The notes beneath the pieces were generated by a model, which had not been told where the DNA came from, made no database searches, and saw only the letters and a program-made list of their open reading frames with translations. Of a DNA stretch of 64,000 nucleotides, positions 28,221 through 51,959 are shown one piece after another; position 1 is the first letter of the stretch; each line of letters begins with the position of its first letter. The stretch comes from Euryarchaeota archaeon Ods02 (GTDB lineage: Archaea > Halobacteriota > Halobacteria > Halobacteriales > Halorutilaceae). Location: contig JAQZDA010000003.1 in assembly GCA_028751075.1 (NCBI GenBank), positions 1 through 64,000 on the forward strand, given 5' to 3'. The position numbers were made by a program, and so were the translations under genes.

Positions 28221-28295
28221 GGGACCGTGGGGTAGCTTGGCCCATCCTCGGCCGCTGGGGGCGGTCGGACTTGAGTTCGAATCTCAACGGTCCCA
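28221..28295 (+). tRNA. tRNA-Pro (GGG)
   Basis: Acceptor stem GGGACCG/CGGTCCC, D-arm GGGTAGCTTGG, anticodon stem GGCCG/CGGTC with loop CTGGGGG (U33, anticodon GGG), T-arm TTGAGTTCGAATCTCAA, discriminator A. No intron and no encoded CCA. A TATA-like GGTTTATG lies about 28 bp upstream. Unlike the Ser and Asp tRNA genes of this window, no repeat element follows; a short T-run (ATCTTTACC) does. Confidence 0.95.
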
Positions 28296-34227: not shown

Positions 34228-34333
34228 CGGTGAGGAGAGGATTTGAACTTGGTGTCACTTCGCTCCCTTCGGTCGCTCGTTCCTGCGTTCAAATCGCTCT
34301 CTCACCTCCGCTTCGTCGCTTCGCTCCTCGCTT
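34228..34333 (-). repeat. tRNA-trailing element behind tRNA-Ser
   Basis: Starting right after the discriminator base of tRNA-Ser, reading on the minus strand: a GCGA/GAAGCG-rich stretch, an inverted copy of the T-arm (GATTTGAAC; plus 34287-34295), a core containing GGAACGA and GAGCGAAGTGAC, and then a direct copy (plus 34228-34248) of the last 21 nt of the tRNA. The inverted and direct T-arm copies (plus 34240-34248) could pair as a 9-bp stem. The same order occurs behind tRNA-Asp. Confidence 0.8.
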
Positions 34334-34422
34334 CGGTGAGGAGAGGATTTGAACCCCTGGGGGCTTTGACGCCCCACCGGCTTTCAAGGCCGGCGCAATC
34401 GGCCAGACTCTGCCACCTCACC
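34334..34422 (-). tRNA. tRNA-Ser (TGA)
   Basis: Class II tRNA on the minus strand: acceptor GGTGAGG/CCTCACC, anticodon stem CCGGC/GCCGG with loop CTTGAAA (anticodon UGA), long variable arm TGGGGCGTCAAAGCCCC, T-arm AGGGGTTCAAATCCTCT and discriminator G, as expected for serine. No intron, no encoded CCA. Confidence 0.95.
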
Positions 34423-51778: not shown

Positions 51779-51851
51779 GCCCGGATGGTGTAGGGGCCCA
51801 TCATACAACCCTGTCACGGTTGTGACGCGGGTTCAAATCCCGCTCCGGGCG
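51779..51851 (+). tRNA. tRNA-Asp (GTC)
   Basis: 73 nt: acceptor GCCCGGA/TCCGGGC, D-arm GGTGTAGGGGCCCATCA, anticodon stem CAACC/GGTTG with loop CTGTCAC (anticodon GUC), T-arm GCGGGTTCAAATCCCGC, discriminator G. TATA-like ACTTATG about 32 bp upstream. No intron. Confidence 0.96.
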
Positions 51852-51959
51852 AACGGAACGAGCTTTTTGCGAGTGGAGTGAGCACGGAAGGGATTTGAAC
51901 GATGGAACGAAGCGAGCTTAGCGAGCGGAGTGACTGGTGTTCAAATCCCGCTCCTAACG
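51852..51959 (+). repeat. tRNA-trailing element behind tRNA-Asp
   Basis: Immediately after the tRNA: GGAACGAGC and GCGAGTGGAGTGAGC, then the inverted T-arm GATTTGAAC (51892-51900), a core with GGAACGAAGCGAGC and GCGAGCGGAGTGAC, and a direct T-arm copy (51939-51954, GTTCAAATCCCGCTCC) identical to 16 nt of the tRNA and placed 108 bp after it. The element matches that behind tRNA-Ser in order, length and core sequence. Confidence 0.8.

Follow-up and report, generated by a model that had tools for sequence, protein, structure and literature searches.

The best comparison for the elements described here comes from Escherichia coli, where the tyrT/tyrV repeats known as RtT (rttR, Rfam RF00391) form a transcribed RNA family whose anatomy we re-derived from MG1655. 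Three tandem units of 178 bp lie behind tyrV in this strain, and one RtT copy is found between the tRNAs. Each tyrV unit terminates with a copy of the 19 nt at the 3' end of the tRNA (bases 58-76). This direct copy is preceded by an inverted copy, GGGGAAGGAT, with which it is paired in the Rfam consensus, and the core of the unit contains the tip CTC-GA-GC-GCCA-GC-GA-GAG or a one-base variant of it. Tandem arrays are also formed by the attC sites of integrons, i.e., imperfect hairpins in which inverted outer boxes (..AAC / GTT..) enclose an internal loop and an inner stem whose tip varies greatly. Furthermore, integrases that target tRNA genes, in archaea as well as bacteria, usually leave a direct repeat of the tRNA 3' end that starts in the T-arm (PMC8371274).

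We analyzed a 64-kb stretch of haloarchaeal DNA (hereafter the window) for which an original prediction had pointed out two matching elements, one behind tRNA-Asp and one behind tRNA-Ser(TGA). Both are present where it had placed them, and the copy lengths and distances that it gave were confirmed, with 21 of 21 nt at 106 bp for Ser and an identical first 16 nt at 108 bp from the original for Asp. The two units are built from the following parts:

51779..51851, plus strand: tRNA-Asp(GTC), host of the first unit (ARAGORN; Rfam tRNA 58.9 bits)
51831-51851, plus strand: tail of tRNA-Asp from G53 to N73, GTTCAAATCCCGCTCCGGGCG
51852..51889, plus strand: left arm of the Asp unit, placed by homology to other units
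51890..51900, plus strand: inverted T-arm copy of the Asp unit, GGGATTTGAAC
51901..51938, plus strand: core of the Asp unit, with GA-RC-NNN-GY-GA tip strings at 51905-51915, 51914-51924, and 51923-51933
51939..51959, plus strand: direct tail copy of the Asp unit, GTTCAAATCCCGCTCCTAACG, 18/21 with the first 16 nt identical
34334..34422, minus strand: tRNA-Ser(TGA), host of the second unit (ARAGORN; Rfam tRNA 52.2 bits)
34334-34354, minus strand: tail of tRNA-Ser(TGA)
34296..34333, minus strand: left arm of the Ser unit, whose end, GGTGAGAGAGC, is imperfectly complementary to the acceptor/T-stem of tRNA-Ser
34287..34295, minus strand: inverted T-arm copy of the Ser unit, GATTTGAAC
34249..34286, minus strand: core of the Ser unit, with a GA-GC-GAA-GT-GA tip string at 34255-34265
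34228..34248, minus strand: direct tail copy of the Ser unit, 21/21

An own-tail element was also looked for behind the third tRNA gene of the window, Pro(GGG) at 28221, and none was found there. The tRNA-Ser(TGA) unit of another metagenome-assembled genome, Euryarchaeota archaeon Ods04 (locus L142), is almost identical to that of the window, so the two organisms are probably closely related.

We read both elements of the window as members of a family of RtT-like repeats of tRNA tails that occurs across the haloarchaeal class, an explanation that, taken as a whole, we give an even chance of being right. By analogy with RtT, the units would probably constitute an archaeal RtT-like family and encode a structured tRNA-trailer RNA.

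Host-matched tail copies across genomes and lineages

The window belongs to a 2.27-Mb draft genome (56 contigs, 89.85% complete), from which we took the tRNAs together with the DNA downstream of them. Units follow one order, i.e., the tRNA end, a left hairpin, an inverted T-arm copy, a core hairpin, and a direct copy of the last 21 nt of the tRNA (G53-N73). Absence of the arrangement behind other tRNA genes had been named at the outset as the observation that would overturn the original prediction. The search gave the opposite result: 23 of the 41 tRNAs other than Ser(TGA) are followed by a copy of their own tail (at least 15 of 21 nt, within about 220 nt), which amounts to about 24 unit-bearing tRNA genes out of 42 once Ser(TGA) is added. 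For 21 of these 23 copies, no other tail among the 39-40 tested matches as well, the exceptions being Ala-CGC and Ser-CGA. Full surveys in which both the inverted and the direct copy had to be present found them behind 29 of 41 tRNAs in genome G168 and 21 of 39 in genome G142, while the figure for foreign tails was 2-5%, part of which reflects likeness between tails. About half to 70% of the tRNA genes carry a unit in the fully surveyed genomes.

The direct copy matches its host tRNA at ~0.97 inside and near background on both sides. Where the copy is strong (219 tRNAs), it agrees with its host at 0.90-1.00 from base 57 to base 73; shuffled partners reach 0.31-0.49 where positions vary most and higher values where they are conserved. 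Agreement is near background at base 52 and upstream and again from base 74 on. Nearly all tRNAs share GTTC at bases 53-56, which leaves the true 5' border anywhere between bases 52 and 57. The inverted copy tracks T-loop variants of the host as well (His, Asn, Pro-GGG, Val, and Lys), and odd T-loops are mirrored in both copies (His, GTTCGATTC; Asn, GTTCGAGTC; Pro-GGG, GTTCAATTC). The 16 nt that precede the inverted copy are more complementary to their own acceptor/T-stem than to others (mean rank 0.30 with a null of 0.5; per-tail p = 5e-9). In the window's genome, the inverted copy often extends to the acceptor end; elsewhere it mostly comprises the T-stem only.

These data support the view that the element is not a plain transposon copy, given that the direct and the inverted copy both follow the host tRNA. 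The earlier wording that it was formed or corrected against the host tRNA is a fair description because the copies follow the host while different tRNAs of one genome can be followed by the same type of core. Similarity of GC-rich repeats by chance, which had been considered as well, is excluded by the host match at bases 57-73 (0.90-1.00, against 0.31-0.49 for shuffled partners) and by the reversed-pattern control described below (0/244).

The pattern GATTTGAAC-N28..58-GTTCAAATC is present in 186 of 244 Halobacteria genomes, and its reversed-pattern control gave no match in the same 244. Loci fetched by the hairpin pattern lie directly behind a tRNA in 28 of 30 cases, and units have the same orientation as their tRNA. 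A stricter three-part pattern occurs in 45 of 394 Halobacteriota, with all matches among the roughly 80 Halobacteria sampled and none in the roughly 310 Halobacteriota outside this class. Scanning 84,980 species yielded at least 80 loci, and among the matches listed almost all are from Halobacteria. The remainder of the matches listed include one Woesearchaeota and one Nanoarchaeia genome (DPANN), in which several further tRNAs are followed by own-tail copies (6 of 15 and 8 of 19 examined, before removal of matches to neighboring tRNA genes); some of the DPANN copies begin at base 58 and carry GA-GC-NNN-GC-GA tips. A bacterial match in Rhodospirillaceae (L196) is isolated, with a unit behind none of the 10 other tRNAs checked.

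We rejected a viral origin, as all 33 matches on viral contigs turned out to be unrelated palindromes or chance. Several of these contigs (L113, L119, L126, L128, L133, and L134) share recurring near-perfect palindromes without an adjacent tRNA; the tRNA that ARAGORN called in L134 is spurious. Their form, CATG-GATTTGAACC..TGG..CTCTGG-loop-CCAGAG..CCA..GGTTCAAATC-CATG, is distinct from the tail units.

Hairpins on the tRNA-sense strand

The left arm forms a hairpin with a stem of 4-10 bp, tandem GA/GA, AC..GT or GC..GC, and a short loop. This motif is found in 119 of 190 left arms compared with 4.3% of shuffles, and it is a property of the family that is less clear in the left arm of the Asp unit. 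The second, imperfect hairpin has a 9-10-bp T-arm stem, in which the inverted T-arm copy pairs with the direct copy of the host's last 21 nt, beyond which come a small internal loop, the inner stem, and the tip. Covariation is seen in the left stem as well as in the inner stem and tip, whose pairing exceeds that of all 300 partner shuffles and involves several base-pair types. The tip reads GA-RC-N3/4-GY-GA in 146 of 242 cores (1.1% in shuffles), in most of them with a GNA triloop. Only 4 cores carry this motif on the opposite strand, and the near confinement to the sense strand shows that it is the tRNA-sense strand that is structured. Both tandem GA and GNA triloops occur in RNA and also as unusually stable DNA mini-hairpins, so strandedness alone cannot separate RNA from single-stranded DNA. 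Interior stem mismatches in the units comprise 29 G.T, 15 A.C, and 36 others out of 883, while the acceptor stems of tRNAs, taken for comparison, have 48 G.T, 0 A.C, and 4 others out of 1658. The mismatches of the unit stems are thus only weakly RNA-like.

Left arms start T-rich, with a T fraction of 0.48 in the first six bases, so transcription may end before the unit. Together with the position of the unit directly after N73 and its co-orientation with the tRNA, these T-rich first bases would suit a structure for 3'-end processing or transcription termination that is required by the tRNA itself, which the original prediction had listed among its options. We nevertheless regard this explanation as very unlikely: many orthologous and paralogous tRNAs have no unit, and tRNAs without the second hairpin are also followed by the T-rich start of a left arm. 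The many orthologous tRNAs without the element in particular argue against a pure terminator.

The GA-RC-GNA-GY-GA motif has 79 matches across the window's genome compared with 22 for the reversed pattern, and two of its tRNA-Gly genes have such strings immediately upstream (G000:C31:13621-13741 and G000:C45:4111-4152). Some core tips are greatly enlarged by nested hairpins as if these had been inserted into the loop, i.e., at four tRNA-Ser(GGA) loci (L408, L418, L420, and L435) and in the second unit behind a tRNA-His (L330). Behind a tRNA-Phe of genome G002 (L073), the core between the two copies is inverted relative to all similar cores. The motif recognized by the splicing endonuclease (BHB) consists of a 3-nt bulge, a 4-bp helix, and another 3-nt bulge (PMC7714728), and we rejected it by eye as the small internal loop and tandem GA of the units do not fit.

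Gain, loss, and exchange of units

Unit spacing is mostly 90-150 bp, with one to three units in tandem. Within 1.5 kb, we found no long version with cargo or an integrase except for an ordinary insertion of ~1.29 kb in the tRNA-Gly(TCC) gene of genome G016 (G016:C15, L064), whose duplication reaches into the anticodon arm. This insertion is an ordinary integrated element that has displaced the hairpin tail unit from its tRNA. The case bears on the suggestion that the units are integration-site remnants, i.e., scars of integrated viruses or plasmids that left att duplications after deletion. Tail duplication is indeed the usual mark of tRNA-targeting integrases (PMC8371274), but the real insertion in G016 has a different and longer duplication, and the units are of constant size, have a conserved interior of two hairpins, and sit behind half or more of all tRNAs. 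As constant size, absence of cargo, conserved two-hairpin anatomy, and presence at about half to 70% of tRNA genes leave this part of the original prediction without support, we consider scars the least probable of all explanations and highly improbable in absolute terms.

Orthologous sites differ in their number of units. Behind tRNA-Gly(TCC), about 30 genomes of one genus have zero, one, or two units with differing core types, and genome G085 has a clean empty site at which the flank matches the flank after the last copy in a relative. Similarly, tRNA-Ser(GGA) is followed by zero to two or more units in the genus around G027 (queried from a Halorubrum), where G154 lacks a unit and has flanks about 92-95% identical to those of the one-unit genome G590. 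The left arm in G154 is chimeric, with the first half of one known arm and the second half of another, which is the product that recombination between repeats would be expected to leave. Two neighboring tRNA-Asp genes, each with a nearly identical tail unit, are found at loci L091 and L096; this near identity suggests a joint duplication of the tRNA and its unit.

Between species, types of left arm and core have been reshuffled in the manner seen in G154. In G168, near-identical cores follow tRNAs for Gly, Arg, and Pro, where the local tails are three different ones; elsewhere, such cores lie behind Phe, Trp, and Ser tRNAs, each again with the local tail. Since near-identical cores always occur with the local tail, the donor tail is not carried along. 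Core similarity is 0.327 for the same genome and different tRNAs, 0.335 for different genomes and the same tRNA, and 0.292 for neither, and the signals for vertical descent and for movement are thus both small.

The strongest rival to the trailer-RNA reading builds on these exchanges and holds that the units are a small, non-autonomous mobile DNA element (cassette- or MITE-like, with an attC-like hairpin) that can land in any tRNA gene at its T-loop. The enzyme moving it would be a recombinase, encoded by the host or by a mobile element, that acts on the sense strand in its folded form. This rival would account for presence and absence at orthologous sites, for tandem units with different cores, for the same cores behind different tRNAs, and for the sharp borders of the host match. 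The hairpin is similar to attC in that its arms are inverted T-loop sequences, an internal loop precedes the inner stem, and the tip varies and can be greatly enlarged. Its stems tolerate A.C as well as G.T. However, classical att recombination would bring in the donor tail and create a chimeric tRNA, whereas tail and inverted copy are local; there is no cargo- or integrase-bearing long version within 1.5 kb; and at least one loss (G154) is explained by repeat recombination. Altogether, we hold this rival to be possible, if rather doubtful.

Repeat recombination also figures in another account in which the units are a functionless by-product of replication, with slippage and template switching at the T-arm palindrome making and pruning both inverted and direct tail copies and strand-specific mutation shaping the hairpins. 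Direct-repeat and quasi-palindrome correction would indeed yield host-matched direct and inverted copies, and recombination alters array size. Yet a by-product would not be expected to keep tandem-GA/GNA tips, covarying stems, and left arms conserved throughout a class, nor to be absent from the roughly 310 other Halobacteriota sampled, which have the same tRNA T-loops; this leaves the account unlikely. In the favored trailer-RNA explanation, both copies would stay matched to the tRNA in front of them through recombination or slippage between the direct tail copies together with fold-back repair of the imperfect palindrome.

Comparison with known systems

The haloarchaeal units share with RtT that they are tandem, non-coding, located directly behind a tRNA, and terminated by a copy of its 3' end with which an inverted copy pairs; a core tip of the GA-GC..GC-GA kind is a further point of likeness. 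They differ in that the RtT copy starts at base 58 and not in GTTC, in their left part, and in their distribution: the units of E. coli measure 178 bp and are confined to a single tRNA species, whereas in haloarchaea dozens of different tRNAs have them. The RF00391 covariance model gave no match above its gathering cut-off (45 bits) in 98 Halobacteria, with a best score of 23.7 bits, and none of ten weak matches that we inspected lies at a tRNA. Membership in RF00391 is therefore rejected, and the haloarchaeal units are built like RtT yet stand outside its sequence family. In the literature searched, which left older tyrT work and most subscription papers out of reach, we found no prior description of the haloarchaeal family.

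Analogy with E. coli RtT makes the "tRNA-derived small-RNA gene" of the original prediction our leading guess at a function. The promoter of the tRNA would read through into the unit, where the folded tail copy would mimic the acceptor/T half of a tRNA. RNase Z (tRNase Z) could then cut at N73 of the tRNA and again at N73 of the copy, and this cleavage would release an RtT-like trailer RNA of ~105-125 nt. Several points speak against the favored explanation, i.e., the only weakly RNA-like mismatches, the T-rich starts of the left arms, the many tRNAs without a unit, and the blindness of the RF00391 model to the units.

With attC sites, the haloarchaeal units share the imperfect hairpin, inverted boxes, internal loop, inner stem, variable tip, and tandem arrays, but the part of the outer boxes is taken by the T-loop of the tRNA and the tail of the host, and the tips contain tandem GA. 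Integron cassettes would have open reading frames between the sites, whereas these units are spaced 90-150 bp apart and have no cargo. REP and REPIN elements are likewise short, hairpin-forming, non-coding, repeated, and strand-specific, but the haloarchaeal units sit behind tRNAs and carry the sequence of their host tRNA. Like att duplications, they show a direct repeat of the tRNA tail from the T-arm (PMC8371274); unlike these, they have an interval of ~110 bp, an inverted copy, conserved hairpins, and no integrated element, and they occur at most tRNAs of a genome. Attachment remnants would leave mobile-element genes or variable remnants between the tail copies, where we found constant size and conserved hairpins.

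Going further, we tentatively propose, as a possibility with the odds against it, that RtT and the haloarchaeal and DPANN units form one cross-domain class of elements at tRNA 3' ends. The universal T-loop would serve as a landing pad and the ends would be rewritten from the host so that any tRNA could be a host, and in haloarchaea such units would make up a genome-wide layer behind most tRNAs that releases tRNA-specific trailer RNA. If this is right, tandem-GA/GNA hairpin tips account for at least part of the GAACGAAGTGAG / GAGCGAAGCGAG strings in haloarchaeal DNA. It would also provide many natural replicates, with hundreds of units, dozens of host tRNAs, and both empty and filled sites, which make it possible to ask how a repeat gains the sequence of its host tRNA and whether trailers generally yield small RNAs. 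E. coli RtT would then cease to be an isolated curiosity and become one example of a type of element found throughout an archaeal class and in some DPANN.
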